This document shows, piece after piece, positions 10,170-19,742 of a stretch of 32,081 nt of DNA (position 1 is the first letter of the stretch; every line of letters begins with the position of its first letter). Origin of the DNA: Caryophanales bacterium (GTDB taxonomy: Bacteria > Bacillota > Bacilli > Paenibacillales > CANHCR01); the NCBI GenBank assembly GCA_947459205.1, contig CANHCR010000030.1, positions 1 through 32,081 of the forward strand, given 5' to 3'. The notes under the pieces are model-generated. The model did no database searches, was not told where the DNA came from, and worked only from the letters and a program-made list of their open reading frames with translations. The translations under genes were made by a program, and so were the position numbers.

Positions 10170-10496
10170 ATGGCTGATTCTGTTATTTTTCCGCAAGATT
10201 TTGTACAAAAGTATAGCAATCAACAATTGATAGAGGCGCTCATCATCGACGTTCGCGAACCGTACGAATGGGACTATTACCATTTGGAGCATTCGCAATT
10301 GATTCCGATGAAGCAAATTCCGCAAAGACTCGCTGAATTACCGCACGATCGCGACATTTACATCATTTGTGCGCACGGCATTCGCAGCGCAGTGGTGACA
10401 GATTATTTGATTCAACATGCACAACATACACGAGTATACAACGTTGCAGGCGGCATGGCGGCGGTCGCTGAATTGCTAGGTTTTGATTACGATTAA
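10170..10496 (+). CDS. Rhodanese-like domain protein
   Basis: Single-domain rhodanese of 108 residues, probably a cytoplasmic persulfide carrier or sulfurtransferase. The N-terminal signature DVREPYEWDYYH is at 27-38, and the active-site loop CAHGIRS is at 67-73 with catalytic C67; NVAGGM follows. It resembles the small stand-alone rhodaneses of bacilli (YqhL- or GlpE-like), but the exact partner is not evident. The start has AAAAGGGGGG 9 bases upstream. It is divergent from serA and followed 15 bases later by the YitT-family gene, so the two may be cotranscribed. Confidence 0.88.
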   Translation: MADSVIFPQDFVQKYSNQQLIEALIIDVREPYEWDYYHLEHSQLIPMKQIPQRLAELPHDRDIYIICAHGIRSAVVTDYLIQHAQHTRVYNVAGGMAAVAELLGFDYD

Positions 10497-10511
10497 CGAG
10501 GAGGACTGTTC

Positions 10512-11402
10512 ATGCCCATCAAAAAGTTAGAATCGAAGGCAAAAAAACATATGAGTCACCCGGTCATTCACTATGTTGTGACTTATTTCTTTCTCTTACT
10601 GGGCGCACTGTTGGTGGCGGTCAGCATCGAATTGTTTCTCATTCCCAACCAAATCATCGACGGCGGCATCATCGGCATCTCGATGATGACGAGTTATTTG
10701 ACAGGCATCGAACTGGGTATCATTCTGTTCGTGCTCAACCTGCCTTTCCTCATTTTGGGCTATAAGCTAATTGGCAAGACGTTCACCATCAACACACTCA
10801 TCGCCGTCACGTTGCTTGCGATTTGCGTCACAATCGTCAAATATTTTTCAATCGATTTGAACGATCAAATGTTGGCTGCGATTTTCGGCGGCATCCTTCT
10901 CGGTATCGGCGTTGGCGTCATCATTCGCTTCGGCGGCGCACTGGACGGCACAGAAATCGTTGCGATCATCACGACTAAGAAAATCGGCTTTTCGGTGGGC
11001 GAAATTATCATGTTCATCAACGTGTTTATTCTAGGCAGTGCCGGTTTCGTCTATTCTTGGCCGTCGGCGATGTATTCGTTGATTACCTATTTCATTGCCT
11101 TCAAAACGATTGACATCGTACTCGAGGGCTTGGACGAGTCGAAATCGGTGATGATTATCACTTCCAATCCAGACGAAATAGCCGAAGCGATTATTCATCG
11201 CCTCGGCCGTGGAGTGACTCATATTTATGCTAAAGGGGGTTACTCTCGTGAAGATAAGGAAATATTGTACTGCATCGTCACGAGACTTGAGGTAGCGAAA
11301 CTAAAATCGATTGTCGCCGAACACGACGAACATGCAATGATTGCGATTGAACATGTCGCCGACGTGATGGGCGGCGGATTTAACAAGAAATCGATTCACT
11401 AA
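10512..11402 (+). CDS. YitT family membrane protein (DUF161 + DUF2179)
   Basis: A 296-residue membrane protein of the YitT family, which is common in bacilli in several paralogues and whose function is not established. About five to six transmembrane segments lie in residues 20-200, with the typical segments LIPNQIIDGGIIGISM and GGALDGTEIVAI. A soluble C-terminal DUF2179 domain follows (about 215-290), with THIYAKGGYSREDKEILYCI. GAGGAGG lies 7 bases before the ATG. The gene is convergent with the uncharacterised minus-strand gene, whose stop is only 17 bases away, and no terminator is visible between them. Confidence 0.88.
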   Translation: MPIKKLESKAKKHMSHPVIHYVVTYFFLLLGALLVAVSIELFLIPNQIIDGGIIGISMMTSYLTGIELGIILFVLNLPFLILGYKLIGKTFTINTLIAVTLLAICVTIVKYFSIDLNDQMLAAIFGGILLGIGVGVIIRFGGALDGTEIVAIITTKKIGFSVGEIIMFINVFILGSAGFVYSWPSAMYSLITYFIAFKTIDIVLEGLDESKSVMIITSNPDEIAEAIIHRLGRGVTHIYAKGGYSREDKEILYCIVTRLEVAKLKSIVAEHDEHAMIAIEHVADVMGGGFNKKSIH

Positions 11403-12464: not shown

Positions 12465-12490
12465 CAAAAGTTGCACTAGGTAAACTTTTG
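12465..12490 (+). promoter_or_regulatory. Palindromic operator candidate (MntR/DtxR type)
   Basis: CAAAAGTT (12465-12472) and AACTTTTG (12483-12490) form a perfect 8-base inverted repeat with a 10-base centre. The inner TTGCACTAGGTAAAC looks like the interrupted palindromes bound by MntR-type metal regulators, judged from memory. It covers the early transcribed region right after the promoter, a position suited to repression. A hairpin role in the mRNA is possible instead. Confidence 0.5.
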
Positions 12491-12531
12491 TGGACAACGC
12501 CAAATTTCGATTACAACCGGAGGAGAGCATC

Positions 12532-13482
12532 ATGACTGTTTTCTCAACTTTTAAAAAGCGATTGATGTTGATCACCATTCTCGTTATCAGTTTGTCATTG
12601 TTGGCGTCATGCGCCGCTGAACAAAGTCAAAGCGAAATCGATAAACTGAACGTGGTCGTGACGACAGGGATGATTTCCGACGCGGTCCGCCAAGTCGGTT
12701 CGGAGCATGTAAGTGTTAAGGCGTTAATGGGACCTGGCATTGATCCACACACGTATAAAGCAACACAACAAGATGTGAAGGCACTGATGGATGCCGACAT
12801 TGTCTTTTATCACGGGTTGAATTTAGAAGGGAAAATGATTGAGGCGATTGAGAAAATGGGGAGTGAAAAGCCGGTAGTCGCTGTGACTGCCGGTCTAGAT
12901 CGCTCTAATTTATTAAAAGATCCTGAAGCAGCTGAATATTATGATCCACATGTATGGTTTGACGTTTCTCTGTGGAGTTTGGTGATCGATGAGATTGCCG
13001 TACAATTGGCGGCGGCGGATGAAAACAATCGCGCGTCATACGAGGAGAACGCACGCATCTACAAAGAGGAACTCGCAAAACTGGACGATCAAATCAAAAA
13101 AAGCATGGCAGCAATTCCTAAGGATCAGCGCGTCCTCATCACTGCACATGATGCGTTCGCCTACTTTGGTCGCGCGTACGAGGTTGAGGTCGTTGCTTTG
13201 CAAGGCATCAGTACAGATGCCGAGTACAGCGTGCGCGATGTGCAAAGTTTAGTTGAATTGATTGATGAACGCAACGTATCGACTATTTTCACGGAAACTT
13301 CGGTATCCGATCGAGCACTAAAAGCCGTGCTTGAAGGCGCGAAAAAACGCGGCATCGATGTCCGCTTTGGCGATCCGCTCTATTCAGATTCGCTTGGCGC
13401 AGCAGATAGCCCCGCCGCGACCTATACAGGCATGTTAAAAAGTAACGTACAAGCGATAACTGACGGCTTGACGCGGAGGTGA
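12532..13482 (+). CDS. mntA: Metal ABC transporter substrate-binding lipoprotein (Mn type)
   Basis: Cluster A-I/TroA-family solute-binding protein that captures a divalent metal outside the membrane. A lipoprotein signal peptide ends in LLASC with lipid-modified C27. Expected metal ligands are visible: H73 (DPHTYK), H140 (DPHVWFD), H206 (TAHDAF) and D286 (YSDSLG). The His-rich loop typical of many zinc binders is absent. Together with two permeases downstream, this favours manganese over zinc. The ATG at 12532 follows GGAGGA by 7 bases; a longer frame from a GTG at 12490 lies in the operator-like palindrome and is rejected. The stop overlaps the start region of the ATPase gene. Confidence 0.88.
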   Translation: MTVFSTFKKRLMLITILVISLSLLASCAAEQSQSEIDKLNVVVTTGMISDAVRQVGSEHVSVKALMGPGIDPHTYKATQQDVKALMDADIVFYHGLNLEGKMIEAIEKMGSEKPVVAVTAGLDRSNLLKDPEAAEYYDPHVWFDVSLWSLVIDEIAVQLAAADENNRASYEENARIYKEELAKLDDQIKKSMAAIPKDQRVLITAHDAFAYFGRAYEVEVVALQGISTDAEYSVRDVQSLVELIDERNVSTIFTETSVSDRALKAVLEGAKKRGIDVRFGDPLYSDSLGAADSPAATYTGMLKSNVQAITDGLTRR

Positions 13483-13490
13483 TGGCTAGC

Positions 13491-14282
13491 ATGACTAGCA
13501 TGAGGGAATCACAGCAAGCGCAATTTAAAGAGGCACTTACTTTAAGGGACGTCTCGGTCCAAGTTGATCAAAAAACGGTATTGCAGGCATTGAACGTTAC
13601 GGTGCCGAGTGGTAAATTGTGTGCCATCATCGGTCCGAACGGTGCCGGCAAATCGACACTTATAAAGGCGATTATCGGCATGCAAGCGCTTAGTGGCGGT
13701 GAGGTTCGTGTGCTAGGGGGAGCAGTGCGTGAACGTCGGCGGTCGATCGGATACGTGCCACAGAAAGAGTCAGTCGATTGGGATTTTCCGATTTCTGTCG
13801 CTGATGTGGTTTTGATGGGTACGTACAATCGTTTGTCGCTTTTTGCTCGACCAGGCAAGGCAGAACGCGAGTTGGTGCAACGCTGTTTGGAACAGTTGAA
13901 CATAAGCGATCTGAGTCAGCGGCAAATTAGCGAACTGTCTGGCGGCCAGCAACAGCGCGTATTCCTTGCGCGGGCACTTGCTCAACGCGCAGACGTGTAC
14001 TTTTTGGATGAACCGTTCGTGGGCGTCGATGCGACGACGGAACGTAATATTATCGCGTTGCTCAAGAACGAGCGCGAGCGTGGCACGAGTCTGTTTGTCG
14101 TGCATCACGATTTGCAGACTGTTCCTGAATATTTCGATTACGTATTGATGCTGAATCAACGCATCATCGCATTCGGTCCGACCGCGGATGTGTTCAATGC
14201 CGAAAATTTAAGCAAAACGTATGGCGGCACGCTTCATTTTTTACATGCAGCGGATGCACGTACGGGAAGTGACTCTTTATGA
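13491..14282 (+). CDS. mntB: Metal ABC transporter ATP-binding protein
   Basis: Cytoplasmic ATPase of the metal importer. The nucleotide-binding motifs are complete: Walker A GPNGAGKST (about 48-56), Q-loop (VPQKES), signature LSGGQQQR (about 149-156), Walker B VYFLDEP and switch His in VVHHD. Start choice: GGAGG at 13475-13479 is 11 bases from the ATG at 13491. The ATG at 13482, which overlaps the mntA stop, is only 2 bases from it, and a third ATG at 13500 is too far. The last bases overlap the first permease gene (ATGA). Family assignment is firm; the metal is inferred from the four-gene arrangement. Confidence 0.88.
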   Translation: MTSMRESQQAQFKEALTLRDVSVQVDQKTVLQALNVTVPSGKLCAIIGPNGAGKSTLIKAIIGMQALSGGEVRVLGGAVRERRRSIGYVPQKESVDWDFPISVADVVLMGTYNRLSLFARPGKAERELVQRCLEQLNISDLSQRQISELSGGQQQRVFLARALAQRADVYFLDEPFVGVDATTERNIIALLKNERERGTSLFVVHHDLQTVPEYFDYVLMLNQRIIAFGPTADVFNAENLSKTYGGTLHFLHAADARTGSDSL

Positions 14283-15148
14283 TCGAGGCGATCTATTCGT
14301 TTTTTGCAGACCCGAACATCCAGTGGGTGCTGTTCGGTACGATGCTCCTTGGACTGACCGGTGGCGTGTTGAGTGTATTCGCCGTCTTGCGCCAACAAAG
14401 TTTGCTTGGCGACGTGATTGCCCATGCAGCTCTGCCAGGCATCTGTTTGTCTTATTTGCTGTTCGGCATCAAATCGGTGCCACTGTTCTTAGGTGGCGCG
14501 CTCGTTTCCGGATTGCTGGCAGGTTGGTTGATTCAAGTCATTGTCCGCCATAGCAAATTGCGCCAGGATGCAGCACTCGCCATCGTGCTCTCGGTGTTCT
14601 TCGGTCTCGGACTGATGTTGCTTACGTATATCCAACAACTGCCAAACGGTAATCAGGCTGGACTCAGTCGTTTCTTGTTCGGTCAGGCGGCCTCGCTAAT
14701 CGCCTCCGACGTGCGCTTGATTGCCATCTGTGCGCTCGTGACCGCTGTGGTCGTCATCCTTTTTTTTGAACAATGGAAAACACTTTGTTTCGACCCGATA
14801 TTTGCCGCCTCTATCGGCATGCCGGTGAAAATGTTGCACTTTTTGCTGACGGCGTTAATCGTTGTCATCGTCATCATCGGCATTCAAATCGCGGGTGTCG
14901 TACTCGTTGCAGCATTACTCATTACGCCGGCGATGAGCGCGCGCTACTGGTCACAAAGTTTGGCGAGCATGATTTGGCTTAGTGCGTTGTTCGGTTGCCT
15001 TGCTGGGTTGCTTGGAACGGTGACCAGTGTTGTTCTTGGTGACATCCCGACGGGCCCTGTCATCATCCTCTACGGTGCAATCATATTTTTGCTATCCTTG
15101 CTGTTAGCACCTGGCAAGGGTTTGCTGATGGGAGGGCGCCGCTCATGA
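14279..15148 (+). CDS. mntC: Metal ABC transporter permease (first)
   Basis: ABC-3 family membrane subunit of the importer, 289 residues with about eight to nine transmembrane segments. The family pattern is clear: LGDVIAHAALPGI near the N-terminus, the coupling-region sequence FDPIFAASIGMP, and VLVAALLITPA. Its start overlaps the ATPase stop by 4 bases and its stop overlaps the next permease start by 4 bases, so translation is coupled through the operon. The two permeases probably form a heterodimer, as in the Bacillus MntABCD system; zinc systems usually have a single permease gene. Confidence 0.87.
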   Translation: MIEAIYSFFADPNIQWVLFGTMLLGLTGGVLSVFAVLRQQSLLGDVIAHAALPGICLSYLLFGIKSVPLFLGGALVSGLLAGWLIQVIVRHSKLRQDAALAIVLSVFFGLGLMLLTYIQQLPNGNQAGLSRFLFGQAASLIASDVRLIAICALVTAVVVILFFEQWKTLCFDPIFAASIGMPVKMLHFLLTALIVVIVIIGIQIAGVVLVAALLITPAMSARYWSQSLASMIWLSALFGCLAGLLGTVTSVVLGDIPTGPVIILYGAIIFLLSLLLAPGKGLLMGGRRS

Positions 15149-15993
15149 GTTATGAGTTATCGATCATTGTCATCGGCGCACTGACAGGCGTCTGTTGTTC
15201 GCTAGTCGGAAGTTATTTGCTTGCTCGCAAAATGGCGATGATTGGTGACGCAATCAGTCACACCGTTCTGCTCGGCATCGTCATAGCGTTTCTTGTCAGT
15301 TCGCAAATGAGCGGCATCTGGATGTACATTGGAGCGACGGTTGTCGGTCTGGCAACCGCTTACTTTGCACAGTTGCTACATGAATGGAAAGTGAAGGCGG
15401 ATGCGGCTATCGGCGTGACGTTTACGACATTGTTTGCACTTGCCATCTTGTTGATCACGTTATTTACAGAGCGCGTACATCTCGATCTTGATCATGTGTT
15501 GTATGGTGAAATTGCCTTCGCACCACTTCGGACGTGGGAATGGTTCGGTCACTCGCTTGGACCGCAAGCATTGTGGATTTTGAGCGGACTGATGCTGTTG
15601 ATTATCGGATGCTATGCGCTGCTTAGCAAACAAATCCGCACGATTACGTTTGATCCTGCGTTTGCTCAGGTGTCCGGCATGCCACTTCGGCGCGTCCACT
15701 ATTTGATGATGACGCTTGTCTCACTTACGGCAGTCGCAGCCTTCGATATCGTCGGTTCGATTCTCGTCGTAGCGATGCTCGTCGTGCCACCTGCCACCGC
15801 TTACTTGATGGCACGCAGTTTTCAACAAGTGTTGCTCTACAGCGCACTGTTTGCAATCGTCGCTGCACTGGGCGGGTATGCGATGGCGAGCGTGCTCAAC
15901 GCCTCGATTGCAGGGGCGATGACCGTCTGTGCTGGGCTCATTTTTGCATTCATTTTTTCGTTGAAGATTGCACTTCGAAAATTAAAGGTATAA
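15145..15993 (+). CDS. mntD: Metal ABC transporter permease (second)
   Basis: Second ABC-3 family permease, 282 residues. It carries the same landmarks as the preceding gene: IGDAISHTVLLGI, FDPAFAQVSGMP and ILVVAMLVVPPATA. This shows the two are paralogues specialised for one transporter. The ATG is within the stop region of mntC, with GGGAGGG 8 bases upstream. It is the last gene of the operon. No clear terminator follows before mecA, only an A/T-rich gap with an inverted repeat. Confidence 0.87.
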   Translation: MSYELSIIVIGALTGVCCSLVGSYLLARKMAMIGDAISHTVLLGIVIAFLVSSQMSGIWMYIGATVVGLATAYFAQLLHEWKVKADAAIGVTFTTLFALAILLITLFTERVHLDLDHVLYGEIAFAPLRTWEWFGHSLGPQALWILSGLMLLIIGCYALLSKQIRTITFDPAFAQVSGMPLRRVHYLMMTLVSLTAVAAFDIVGSILVVAMLVVPPATAYLMARSFQQVLLYSALFAIVAALGGYAMASVLNASIAGAMTVCAGLIFAFIFSLKIALRKLKV

Positions 15994-16108: not shown

Positions 16109-16708
16109 ATGAAACTAGAACGATTGAGCAATGACAAGATTCGCGTATTTTTGACGTTTGACGATTTGCGCGAGAGAGGCATTCAGAAAGAGGACATGTG
16201 GAATGATATCCCCAAGGTGCATGAGCTTTTCAACGAGATGATGAACAGCGCATACGAAGAGCTTGGTTTTGAAGTGTCGGGGCCGCTTGCGGTCGAAATT
16301 TTTGCGATGCCGGCACAGGGGATGGTCGTCATTGTCACCAAGAGCAAGATGTCGTCAACGACAGACGATGATGAAGATGAGGATTTGGATGACATTCTTG
16401 AAATGCAAGTTACTCTTGAGCATACGGACCGCATTTGTTACGTGTTCCGCCAGTTTGAGGATGTACTTGGTGCGGCGAAAATCTTGCAGTCGATGGAAGT
16501 CTCGCAAGGCGCGCTCTTTCACTATAAAGACCGTTACGTACTCCATATGGAGTCGGATGACTTTTCAGAGAAGCAGATGCTTGACTTGATTTCAGTGCTG
16601 TCCGAATATGGAGATGCGGTTTCTTACACGAAGGCAGTGATGGAAGAATACGGTCAGACGGTGATTGCTACTGATGCAGTCACTGTGTTGTGCAAACATT
16701 TCCACTAA
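16109..16708 (+). CDS. mecA: Adaptor protein MecA
   Basis: Adaptor that delivers substrates to the ClpCP protease; in B. subtilis it targets the competence factor ComK and other proteins. The N-terminal substrate-recognition domain (about 1-82) begins MKLERLSNDKIRVFLTFDDL and contains VIVTKSKM. A short, very acidic linker (DDDEDEDLDD) follows, then the C-terminal ClpC-binding domain (about 100-199) with FRQFEDVLGAAK and a terminal KHFH. At 199 residues it is shorter than B. subtilis MecA (218), mostly in the linker. GAGAGGGGGA precedes the ATG. The gene is monocistronic, with a strong terminator directly behind it. Confidence 0.92.
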   Translation: MKLERLSNDKIRVFLTFDDLRERGIQKEDMWNDIPKVHELFNEMMNSAYEELGFEVSGPLAVEIFAMPAQGMVVIVTKSKMSSTTDDDEDEDLDDILEMQVTLEHTDRICYVFRQFEDVLGAAKILQSMEVSQGALFHYKDRYVLHMESDDFSEKQMLDLISVLSEYGDAVSYTKAVMEEYGQTVIATDAVTVLCKHFH

Positions 16709-16727
16709 TTCAAACATAAACAACGTA

Positions 16728-16770
16728 GGCATCTGCAAAAACATTTAAGGGTTTTTGCGGGTGCCTTTTT
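16728..16770 (+). terminator. Terminator of mecA
   Basis: A 14-base stem (16728-16741 with 16752-16765, with G-U pairs) and a 10-base loop are followed by TTTTT at 16766-16770. Confidence 0.88.
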
Positions 16771-16795
16771 ACATATTTCTTGAGGAGTGACCGAT

Positions 16796-18322
16796 ATGCC
16801 GGCAAATGAACGAATCAGTTTGGCGAAGACGCTGACTTCCGATGATTTGGAACGAATCGCTAGCAGTTGTCAGAAACAGTTGACCGATGAGGCGATGTAT
16901 TACTTGGAGTCGCGCCGCATTTATCCGAAAACGATTGAACAATTTGGCATTGGATTTCAGTCGGCGAAGATCGGATTTGCCGCCGAGAGCAACTCGATTG
17001 CCGATTATTTCGAAAATCGCATCGTCATTCCGGTGCGTAATGGCGAAGGCAAAATTACCGAACTGGTCGGGCGGGCGATTGACCAGCGCGAACCGAAATA
17101 TAAGTTGTTGCTCGGCAACGAAGAGGCTTTTTTTAACGAGACGGAACTCGATGAATCGGATGAAGTCATTCTTTGCAATAATATCTTCGACACACTCATC
17201 CTCATTCAAGAGGATTTGCCGGCGATTTGCTTGCAAACGTCGGTCAGTTTTAAGGCCGTGCATGCGCAACGTCTGATCGGCAAACGTGTGTTGATTTGCC
17301 TTGGCAATGACGAAACGGGGTTGCGCGAAAGTGCGCGTATCGAAAATTTGCTGCGGGAACTTGATATCGAGACGTACATCGTTCATCTGCCGGAGAACAT
17401 TCGAGACATCAACGATATGTTCGTCAATTTTGAAGAGCCGCTCGCACGTTTTTTGGACTTGCTCAATGCCACCATCGAACAGGCGATGTTGGAGCCCATC
17501 GCTTCAGATTTTCGCAACATCATCGTCTTCAACGAAGAATATATGAAACGTTTTCGCGGTTTGGTCAGCGGCGTGTCGAGTGGGTTGGAGTCGCTCGATC
17601 GTGCCTTGCTTGGCGGCTTCCGCAGCGGACTGTACATCATCACAGGCACGACAGCGAGTGGTAAAACATTGCTCATGAAACAAATGGCCGATCACATCGC
17701 ATCCGGTCAGACACCCGTCATCTACGTGTCCTATGATTTGACGGCGTTCGAATTGTGGGCGCGTTCAATCGCTCGAATCCTCGGTAAAGCGACGCATGAG
17801 GTGTTGAATGGTAATCTCGTGCCAGAAAGCGTATTCGAGGCGAATCAAACGTATCACCAACTCAGCCAATCGATGTGGACGCTGGAAATGCCGTTTGATT
17901 CATCGATTCAATATGCACTTGCGCAAGTTGAAAAAATCTTGCTGACGCTCGGTCGACCGCCAGTCGTGTTCATCGACAATTTGCAGCGAATTCCGTACAG
18001 TCGGCGCGATGGCGAGGTGCAGTCGGCAGCTCAGTTCCAGGCGATGATGGCCTATCGGTTCAAGGAGTTGTCGCGCGAATGGCAGTGTCCGTTCATTTGC
18101 TCGATCCCTGCCGAGCGTCAGGAGCATCCTTTGCCGATTGGCGTCGAAGCGGCGGCCGACGTCATCATGGAGTTGCGCAGAGAATCAGACAAACACACGA
18201 CTGCCGGACGAGATGCACAAAGCACGATGTCGCTGACTTTGCTCAAGCATCGGAACGGCGCGCTCGGCACCTTGCAATTGAACTGCAACCATTCACGTAC
18301 GCTGTTCACTGCAGCACCTTAA
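16796..18322 (+). CDS. Degenerate DnaG/Toprim domain fused to DnaB-type helicase core
   Basis: The 508-residue protein joins a DnaG-like catalytic-core region with Toprim fold (about 30-225) to a DnaB/Twinkle-type RecA-fold ATPase (about 255-505). The primase part has the DnaG-like RIVIPVRNGEGKI and RAIDQREPKYK, but no zinc finger. In Toprim, the catalytic Glu of EGxxD reads N (NNIFD, D132 kept) and DxDxxG reads GNDETG (first Asp lost, D172 kept), so primase or nicking activity is unlikely. The ATPase has Walker A GTTASGKT (284-291), Walker B VVFIDNLQ (D394) and an arginine-finger-like KHRNG (484-488). The DnaB catalytic Glu position (SLEM in DnaB) reads SYDL. The DnaB N-terminal domain is absent. 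The start ATG follows GAGGAG by 8 bases. It lies between mecA and ypeB, where sleB might be expected. Role unknown. Confidence 0.82.
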   Translation: MPANERISLAKTLTSDDLERIASSCQKQLTDEAMYYLESRRIYPKTIEQFGIGFQSAKIGFAAESNSIADYFENRIVIPVRNGEGKITELVGRAIDQREPKYKLLLGNEEAFFNETELDESDEVILCNNIFDTLILIQEDLPAICLQTSVSFKAVHAQRLIGKRVLICLGNDETGLRESARIENLLRELDIETYIVHLPENIRDINDMFVNFEEPLARFLDLLNATIEQAMLEPIASDFRNIIVFNEEYMKRFRGLVSGVSSGLESLDRALLGGFRSGLYIITGTTASGKTLLMKQMADHIASGQTPVIYVSYDLTAFELWARSIARILGKATHEVLNGNLVPESVFEANQTYHQLSQSMWTLEMPFDSSIQYALAQVEKILLTLGRPPVVFIDNLQRIPYSRRDGEVQSAAQFQAMMAYRFKELSREWQCPFICSIPAERQEHPLPIGVEAAADVIMELRRESDKHTTAGRDAQSTMSLTLLKHRNGALGTLQLNCNHSRTLFTAAP

Positions 18323-18398: not shown

Positions 18399-19742
18399 AT
18401 GTATCGAAAAATCAGCGCGATTGTGCTACCGCTTGCTCTCATTGCCCTCATCGCCGTGAGCGCGTGGGGCTTTCAGGTTCGTGAAGAGAAGAATACGGTG
18501 CTGATAAAGGCGGAAAATCAGTATCAACGAGCGTTTCATGAATTGACAGATAATGTCGAACAACTGCATTATGAACTGGCGAAAATCATGATTTTGAACG
18601 GTGAAGAGTCACAGCGAAAGGCGCTAGCGAACGTCTGGCGCTTGACCAATCAAGCGCAATCGAACATTGCTCAGTTGCCACTGGCGCTCTTGCCGTTTCA
18701 TCAGACACAACAATTACTGCATAACGTTTCTGGTTTTGCCTATCGCACATCGGTGCGCGACATGCGCAACAAACCGCTGTCCGCCGCAGAGAAAAAGACG
18801 CTCGTCAATTTGCATCGCCGTACGGGCGAGATTGCCGCCGAATTGCGCAAAGTGCAGACGGCAGTCATCGGCAAACAATTGCGCTGGATGGACGTCGAGG
18901 TGGCACTCGCTGACGAACGCGGGCAACGTGATAACGCAATCATCGACGGATTTAAATTGGTCAACGAGAAAGTCGTTGAATTTGAGGAATTTGATTGGGG
19001 GCCGTCGGCACTCAACAAACATTTGACGACTGAACCACTCATCACAAACGCGAAACCGCTCTCCGATGCGGCATTAAAGAAGCGCGCGGGTGAATGGGTC
19101 GGCGGCACCGCGATCCGTCAGGTGCGTGACAAAAAACTGCAAGCACGTGGCATCGCGGAATGGCAAGTCAAGCATCGTTCGAGCGACCAAACCGTATCGG
19201 TGCAAATGAACCGCTATACCGGTCAAGCGCTGATGTTTCTCCACTCGCGTAAGGTTGGCGCGGTGAAGTTGCAGCCCGAGCAAGCGCTGGCGAAAGCCGA
19301 ACAGTACATGAAGCGTCACCAGTTTCCTGCACTCGAGATGGTCGCCTATGATCGTTATGAGCGCTCGGCCAGCATCACTTTTGTTGAGAATAAGCATAAA
19401 ACACTCTACTATCCTCATAAAGTAGTGGTAAATGTGGCGCTCGATAACGGTGAAATTATCGGCTTGCAATCGCAGTTGCCGTTTGCCGAATCAGAGCGTG
19501 CGAAGTCTTTGAGTGCGGTTTCGCGAAAGTCTGAATTGTCACAAAAAAGTGCACGTTCCTTGTTAGAACCAGGTTTCAAGGTGCTATCCGTGCGCAGGGC
19601 CGTCATCGAAAACGAGCGTCGTGAAGCGGTGTCGTGCTATCAGTTTGAGGGGCGCTTGGGCGAGCAACATTATCGCATTTTTCTCAACACAGTCGACGGC
19701 CGCGAAGAACAAGTGGAGCGCCTGAGTGAAGTCGAAATTTGA
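18399..19742 (+). CDS. ypeB: Germination protein YpeB
   Basis: Spore protein required with the cortex-lytic enzyme SleB for cortex breakdown at germination; in bacilli SleB and YpeB depend on each other for presence in the spore. The 447 residues match the usual length of about 450. An N-terminal membrane anchor or signal segment is at about 6-26, a long helical region at about 30-220, and PepSY-type repeats fill the C-terminal half (for example HRSSDQTVSVQMNRYTGQ and VVNVALDNGEIIGLQSQ). The ATG is 9 bases after AGGGAG, which lies inside the hairpin described at 18343-18395. No sleB gene is next to it here. The stop overlaps the ypfB-like gene by one base. Confidence 0.9.
   Translation: MYRKISAIVLPLALIALIAVSAWGFQVREEKNTVLIKAENQYQRAFHELTDNVEQLHYELAKIMILNGEESQRKALANVWRLTNQAQSNIAQLPLALLPFHQTQQLLHNVSGFAYRTSVRDMRNKPLSAAEKKTLVNLHRRTGEIAAELRKVQTAVIGKQLRWMDVEVALADERGQRDNAIIDGFKLVNEKVVEFEEFDWGPSALNKHLTTEPLITNAKPLSDAALKKRAGEWVGGTAIRQVRDKKLQARGIAEWQVKHRSSDQTVSVQMNRYTGQALMFLHSRKVGAVKLQPEQALAKAEQYMKRHQFPALEMVAYDRYERSASITFVENKHKTLYYPHKVVVNVALDNGEIIGLQSQLPFAESERAKSLSAVSRKSELSQKSARSLLEPGFKVLSVRRAVIENERREAVSCYQFEGRLGEQHYRIFLNTVDGREEQVERLSEVEI

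Follow-up and report, generated by a model that had tools for sequence, protein, structure and literature searches.

The window analysed here is a stretch of 32,081 nucleotides from a genome of the Paenibacillales (contig CANHCR010000030.1). The gene of interest, its two neighbours, and all of the motifs described below are on the forward strand. At positions 16796 to 18322 is an open reading frame, encoding a 508 amino acid fusion of Toprim and DnaB_C domains, that resembles a degenerate primase-helicase. The ATG start codon is at position 16796 and, by reading the sequence, we recognised a ribosome binding site (GAGGAG, 16782 to 16787) 8 nt further 5'. Upstream is a gene for a MecA/YpbH-family adaptor (16109 to 16708; model NF002781, 255.9 bits against a cutoff of 224). 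Downstream is ypeB (18399 to 19742; TIGR02889, 313.5 against a cutoff of 303.55). An intrinsic terminator on the same strand, consisting of a 16-pair stem and T tail, lies between mecA/ypbH and the fusion gene (16727 to 16766). We also considered whether the antisense frame is a gene. This was rejected because the frame has internal stops and no coding case. Directly 5' of mecA, the window has a complete zinc/manganese-type ABC transporter cassette (12490 to 15993), encoding a substrate-binding protein, an ATPase, and two permeases. In relatives, this place is held by a polysaccharide deacetylase and a small conserved gene.

The fusion protein has two recognisable halves. Pfam detected a DnaB_C match, at amino acids 259 to 505 (E 2.5e-24), that corresponds to a RecA-fold ATPase domain (17570 to 18310). 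The other half retains the remnant of a DnaG catalytic core (amino acids 61 to 208; 16976 to 17419), made up of the DNAG_N tail and Toprim fold. Here, the end of DNAG_N was matched at amino acids 61 to 102 (E 1.8e-11) and Toprim_2, slightly below threshold, at amino acids 127 to 208 (E 2.6e-4). Among NCBIfam models, the DnaG model TIGR01391 matched amino acids 62 to 211 (E 1.1e-15), far under its equivalog cutoff. Similarly, the DnaB model TIGR00665 scored 64 bits on the second half, against a cutoff of 385. PHROG primase/helicase models cover both halves (for example, phrog_239 at amino acids 27 to 435, E 1.6e-16). The protein has no DnaB N-terminal domain, its N-terminus is without any CxxC/CHC2 zinc-binding region, and neither adjoining gene is a CHC2 gene. 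An AlphaFold2 model, for which ten sequences were supplied, was of moderate quality (pLDDT 67, pTM 0.46) and is silent on oligomers. The top whole-chain Foldseek matches were human Twinkle (7t8b) and T7 gp4, spanning both domains. The RecA domain aligned with DnaB (2r6e) with a Z score of 23.9 (2.5 A over 223 residues). A first-pass annotation had proposed that a primase-type domain precedes a DnaB-type RecA domain on one chain, as in Twinkle and T7 gp4. Since the profile and fold matches agree, we consider this architecture to be right.

The same annotation listed several altered residues, and all are borne out by our motif reading. The EGxxD motif of the Toprim fold reads N128-N-I-F-D132 (17177 to 17191). 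Hence, the catalytic Glu is gone and the Asp is retained. The DxD motif reads G170-N-D172 (17303 to 17311), so the first Asp is gone and the second is retained. These residues and the zinc-binding domain are features of a DnaG-type primase that the protein lacks. Most ATPase residues of the Twinkle/T7 gp4 type are intact, as had been noted. These are Walker A (GTTASGKT, amino acids 284 to 291; 17645 to 17668), the Walker B Asp394 (FID394; 17975 to 17977), and KHRNG (18245 to 18259), the counterpart of the DnaB Lys/Arg finger KQRNG. The exception is Asp314 (SYD314; 17735 to 17737), found where DnaB and Twinkle have a catalytic Glu.

Our scan of genome contigs identified 14 Paenibacillus loci with full-length homologues at 46-50% identity, a match far beyond chance. 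A profile search found the gene, as a single copy, in 51 of 395 Paenibacillales genomes. In one of the 51, Paenibacillus sp. CC-CFT747 (G207; loci L016 and L063), the locus is retained and the gene is split into several frames, reflecting either a recent pseudogene or assembly errors. Searching 399 Bacilli genomes added 19 carriers in seven other family-level groups; the weaker matches resemble the primase-helicases of phages or plasmids, and their motifs are intact. Outside the class, the sampled phylum set yielded just two genomes with a full-length close relative. A second class-wide search returned the same genomes again, and no added members with an intact Toprim. Among eight close Paenibacillus copies, dN/dS was 0.05-0.10 overall and similar for each half (0.03-0.13 for the N-terminal half and 0.04-0.13 for the RecA half). 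The gene is under purifying selection. That this extends to the Toprim half speaks for use of the disabled domain.

We compared motifs across 44 full-length Bacilli homologues, alongside rows from outside the class, plasmids, and phages. The Toprim Glu was replaced, by N, G, S, R, H, K or Q, in all 44 Bacilli rows. The first Asp of DxD was likewise replaced in every case, by G, P, S or A. Conversely, the EGxxD Asp and second DxD Asp were kept in 44 of 44. Standard EGxxD and DxD motifs in such homologues would mark the window copy as a decayed one; the motifs were degenerate throughout. Given this, and the dN/dS values, we rejected decay of a single copy, and the earlier view that the primase is disabled, not simply decaying, is upheld. 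The two relatives from outside the class (L057 and L058) retain EGxxD, DxD, and the catalytic Glu, as do all plasmid and phage rows. Each Toprim loss maps to one change on the tree. Furthermore, the degenerate set clusters with 100/100 support, in a single tree of 44 rows (37 degenerate) from which long branches were left out. The Toprim losses are shown to have a single origin. That this is a degenerate, selected, and vertically inherited family is, in our view, close to certain.

The catalytic Glu of the ATPase has a different history. At this position, 37 of the 44 Bacilli members have Asp, four have Glu (L062, L094, L096, and L104), two have Gln, and one has Gly. By parsimony, this required four changes. 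Walker A, Walker B, and the Lys/Arg fingers are retained in nearly all family members. The most diverged member (L106, 6883 to 8454) has the Gly, a Leu in place of the finger Arg, and an adjoining serine recombinase gene. Near the intact-Toprim relative L058 (G413), we observed a gene for an IstB/DnaA-like ATPase (10224 to 11378) that is possibly helicase-loader-like.

Prophage genes beside the copies of relatives were the other finding that would have refuted the first-pass annotation. No phage genes were found beside the window copy, as that annotation had remarked, nor beside the syntenic copies of relatives, where we found housekeeping synteny. The one exception is the very diverged L106 copy noted above. 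Scanning IMG/VR with the Paenibacillus alignment returned no relative, and a wider alignment returned three remote partial matches only. Phage and plasmid relatives share only 22-28% identity with the family. With housekeeping synteny, and no close relative in IMG/VR, we rejected a phage origin for the locus. We also rejected a role in anti-phage defence; PADLOC gave only Toprim cross-matches (RTasDnaG-like, 4.5e-15), and the locus is fixed and of housekeeping character. The gene could instead be a domesticated or decaying replication protein, from a mobile element, that has no present function. The nearest active relatives are indeed plasmid CHC2-Toprim-DnaB_C replication proteins, one genome has a broken copy, and most Paenibacillales are without the gene. 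Against this are the purifying selection, the shared locus in eight family-level groups, and the absence of both Toprim catalytic residues across deep splits, with the other two Asp residues kept. This explanation is already largely refuted and we regard it as very improbable.

A further loss became apparent in the RecA domain. The DnaB loop that follows motif H3 has RESG at its end; the Arg side chain, together with the Glu and Gly amides, grips ssDNA phosphates (PMC8421360). The loop is 24 amino acids long in plasmid and phage primase-helicases, with KESG, and 27 amino acids long in the host's own DnaB, with RESG. In the window protein it is cut to 15 amino acids (18104 to 18148). Across the family the loop spans 13-21 amino acids, and (R/K)ESG is missing from all members compared, L057 and L058 included. 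As judged by alignment, the (R/K)ESG loop is both shortened and lost family-wide, a feature that the first-pass annotation did not notice. Most Paenibacillus members retain PEG near the lost ESG site, and some backbone contact to DNA may survive there. The first-pass annotation suggested a DNA- or RNA-binding ATPase. Because the one loop known to contact ssDNA in DnaB is lost, DNA binding is not to be assumed. In fish Twinkle, substitution of the catalytic Glu (E325Q) abolished ATP hydrolysis, and substitution in a DNA loop (R440A) reduced DNA binding (PMC9723800). With Asp at the catalytic site, and a cut loop, we would expect ATP hydrolysis to be slow and translocation to be weak.

These changes bear on whether the protein is a working, Twinkle-style, accessory helicase. 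Such an enzyme would have a dead primase and a DnaB-type motor that can still unwind DNA. It might, for instance, act alongside RadA and DnaB where forks have stalled or in recombination. The near universal Walker A, Walker B, and Lys/Arg fingers, and the four members with a catalytic Glu, are consistent with this. Moreover, Twinkle is the top structural match, and the human protein unwinds DNA despite its lost primase (PMC9860392). Set against these points are loss of the (R/K)ESG loop in the whole family and a catalytic Glu that 40 of the 44 members have exchanged for Asp, Gln or Gly. On balance, we think an accessory helicase possible but rather unlikely.

The position of the gene has also been taken as a clue to function. 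The site is fixed, in the order ypbH/mecA, fusion gene, gudB, prsW, ypeB, and cmk, across eight family-level Bacilli groups. More fully, the order is ypbH/mecA, fusion gene, gudB, (asparaginase), prsW, ypeB, pilZ, cmk, and rpsA. This was seen in Paenibacillales and families f155, f159, f169, f170, and f173, with local gains and losses. Families f180 and f192 carry the fusion gene at other places. In the window, this stretch lacks both gudB and prsW, ypeB directly follows the fusion gene, and no sleB adjoins. Among non-carriers, the empty site is a mecA-gudB junction in L122 and L123 and a mecA-prsW junction in L121. L123 shares a coded genus with three carriers, pointing to recent loss of the gene there. 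Of 19 loci folded, nearly all have a terminator-type hairpin between mecA and the fusion gene. The gap from hairpin to start codon is only about 25-30 nt in the window, as it is at several Paenibacillus loci. Hence, transcription must read through the hairpin or begin upstream of it. At L097, the spacer between mecA and the fusion gene (between 8514 and 8991) is 479 nt, much longer than in relatives, and has a strong predicted fold.

From the place of the gene between mecA and ypeB, the first-pass annotation raised a sporulation- or competence-related job, an argument drawn solely from the neighbours. Here, the protein would act with YpeB, PrsW or MecA, in sporulation, germination or competence. 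Both ypeB and prsW are at the locus in most relatives, and spoIVA is also in the window. We found ypeB in 24 of 24 Bacilli carriers tested and 36 of 54 non-carriers, among genomes that are related rather than independent. The two relatives from outside the class, with intact Toprim motifs, have no ypeB. The co-occurrence is suggestive at most and, with so many non-carriers also having ypeB, we rejected it as proof of a spore role. In addition, the fusion gene is elsewhere in f180 and f192. Since mecA and the fusion gene are kept apart by a terminator, ypeB-positive genomes have the empty site, and the neighbours are of mixed function (gudB, asparaginase, prsW, pilZ, and cmk), we give the argument little weight and consider a spore or competence factor improbable. 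A second suggestion from position is that the protein regulates gudB, encoding glutamate dehydrogenase, with the Toprim and RecA folds as nucleotide or metal sensors. While gudB often starts within tens of bases of the fusion gene (12 bp in L003), it does not adjoin in several carriers (the window, L060, L069, L061, and L015). We think such a regulator highly unlikely.

What sequence comparison does establish is the architecture, the substitutions, the single origin of the Toprim losses, purifying selection, and the fixed locus. From these, we propose the following history. The gene would derive from a Twinkle/T7 gp4-type primase-helicase, as used by small plasmids and phages, and is now a vertically inherited gene of Bacilli chromosomes. 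First, an ancestor would have lost the zinc-binding domain and (R/K)ESG ssDNA-contact loop. Second, the Toprim Glu and first Asp disappeared a single time, in the Bacilli lineage. Third, the catalytic Glu would have become Asp in most members. Because it retains the P-loop, the Walker B Asp, and the Lys/Arg fingers, the product should bind ATP and form a DnaB-like ring. It would make no primers, hydrolyse ATP slowly, and translocate poorly. The host genome encodes its own DnaG on another contig (442 bits) and, elsewhere, a true DnaB; we rejected the possibility that the fusion protein stands in for either. Instead, we suggest that it works beside them in chromosome maintenance, as an ATP-gated oligomeric scaffold or clamp. 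The constrained pseudo-primase domain would serve as its binding part, for nucleic acid or for a partner protein. There is a precedent for this; the N-terminal domain of human Twinkle has lost priming yet binds DNA (PMC9860392).

A degenerate, ATP-gated, ring scaffold or clamp is our best explanation, and we put its chances at roughly even. Much the same applies to the claim that the protein is not a replicative motor; we are less confident of its exact role. Counting against the scaffold or clamp, catalysis may still be possible with Asp in place of the catalytic Glu, and Glu itself is retained by four members. Furthermore, by analogy, human Twinkle has a dead primase domain and can nonetheless be a full replicative helicase. 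More tentatively, the protein could be a doubly degenerate primase-helicase, pairing a pseudo-primase with a non-translocating pseudo-helicase ring, that serves Bacilli as a non-replicative ATP switch acting on DNA or protein partners. Because selection still preserves the protein, it probably has a job other than primer synthesis.

We found no description of the family in the literature searched, a search that most subscription journals lay outside. On that basis, the combination of changes, the extra loop loss, and the bacterial chromosomal setting appear new; the folds, and loss of priming in animals, are known. The family protein shares the Toprim core, and end of the RNA polymerase domain, with DnaG. 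Unlike DnaG, it is without the zinc-binding domain, the Glu and first Asp, and the C-terminal helicase-binding domain. The RecA core, Walker A and B motifs, and KxRNG fingers are common to DnaB. However, the DnaB N-terminal domain and RESG loop are absent, and Asp replaces the catalytic Glu. Domain order is shared with CHC2-Toprim-DnaB_C proteins of plasmids and phages (pSMQ-316, pLRI05, and T7 gp4, the last compared by fold only). Identity to the plasmid proteins is 22-24% over about 90% of the length. The plasmid and phage proteins compared by sequence differ in keeping a zinc finger (or separate CHC2 gene), EGxxD, DxD, the catalytic Glu, and KESG.

Metazoan Twinkle has the same arrangement of Toprim-type domain, linker, and DnaB-type RecA domain, and has also lost the zinc finger and Toprim catalytic residues. 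In contrast to the family, which mostly has Asp and a short loop, Twinkle retains the catalytic Glu (E325 in fish; PMC9723800), LoopD1, and LoopD2. The family also differs in residing on bacterial chromosomes, alongside separate DnaG and DnaB. Hence, loss of the primase from a primase-helicase, known from animal mitochondria, is found here in spore-forming Bacilli, where it occurred once and early. The Bacilli seem to have gone further, since the DNA-contact loop and catalytic Glu are also altered in a protein still under selection. The family offers a natural test of what becomes of a replicative ring ATPase when priming and unwinding are not required, in bacteria that are open to deletion and assay. 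If the doubly degenerate reading is true, the family would be a bacterial counterpart of the loss of primase by Twinkle, taken one step further.
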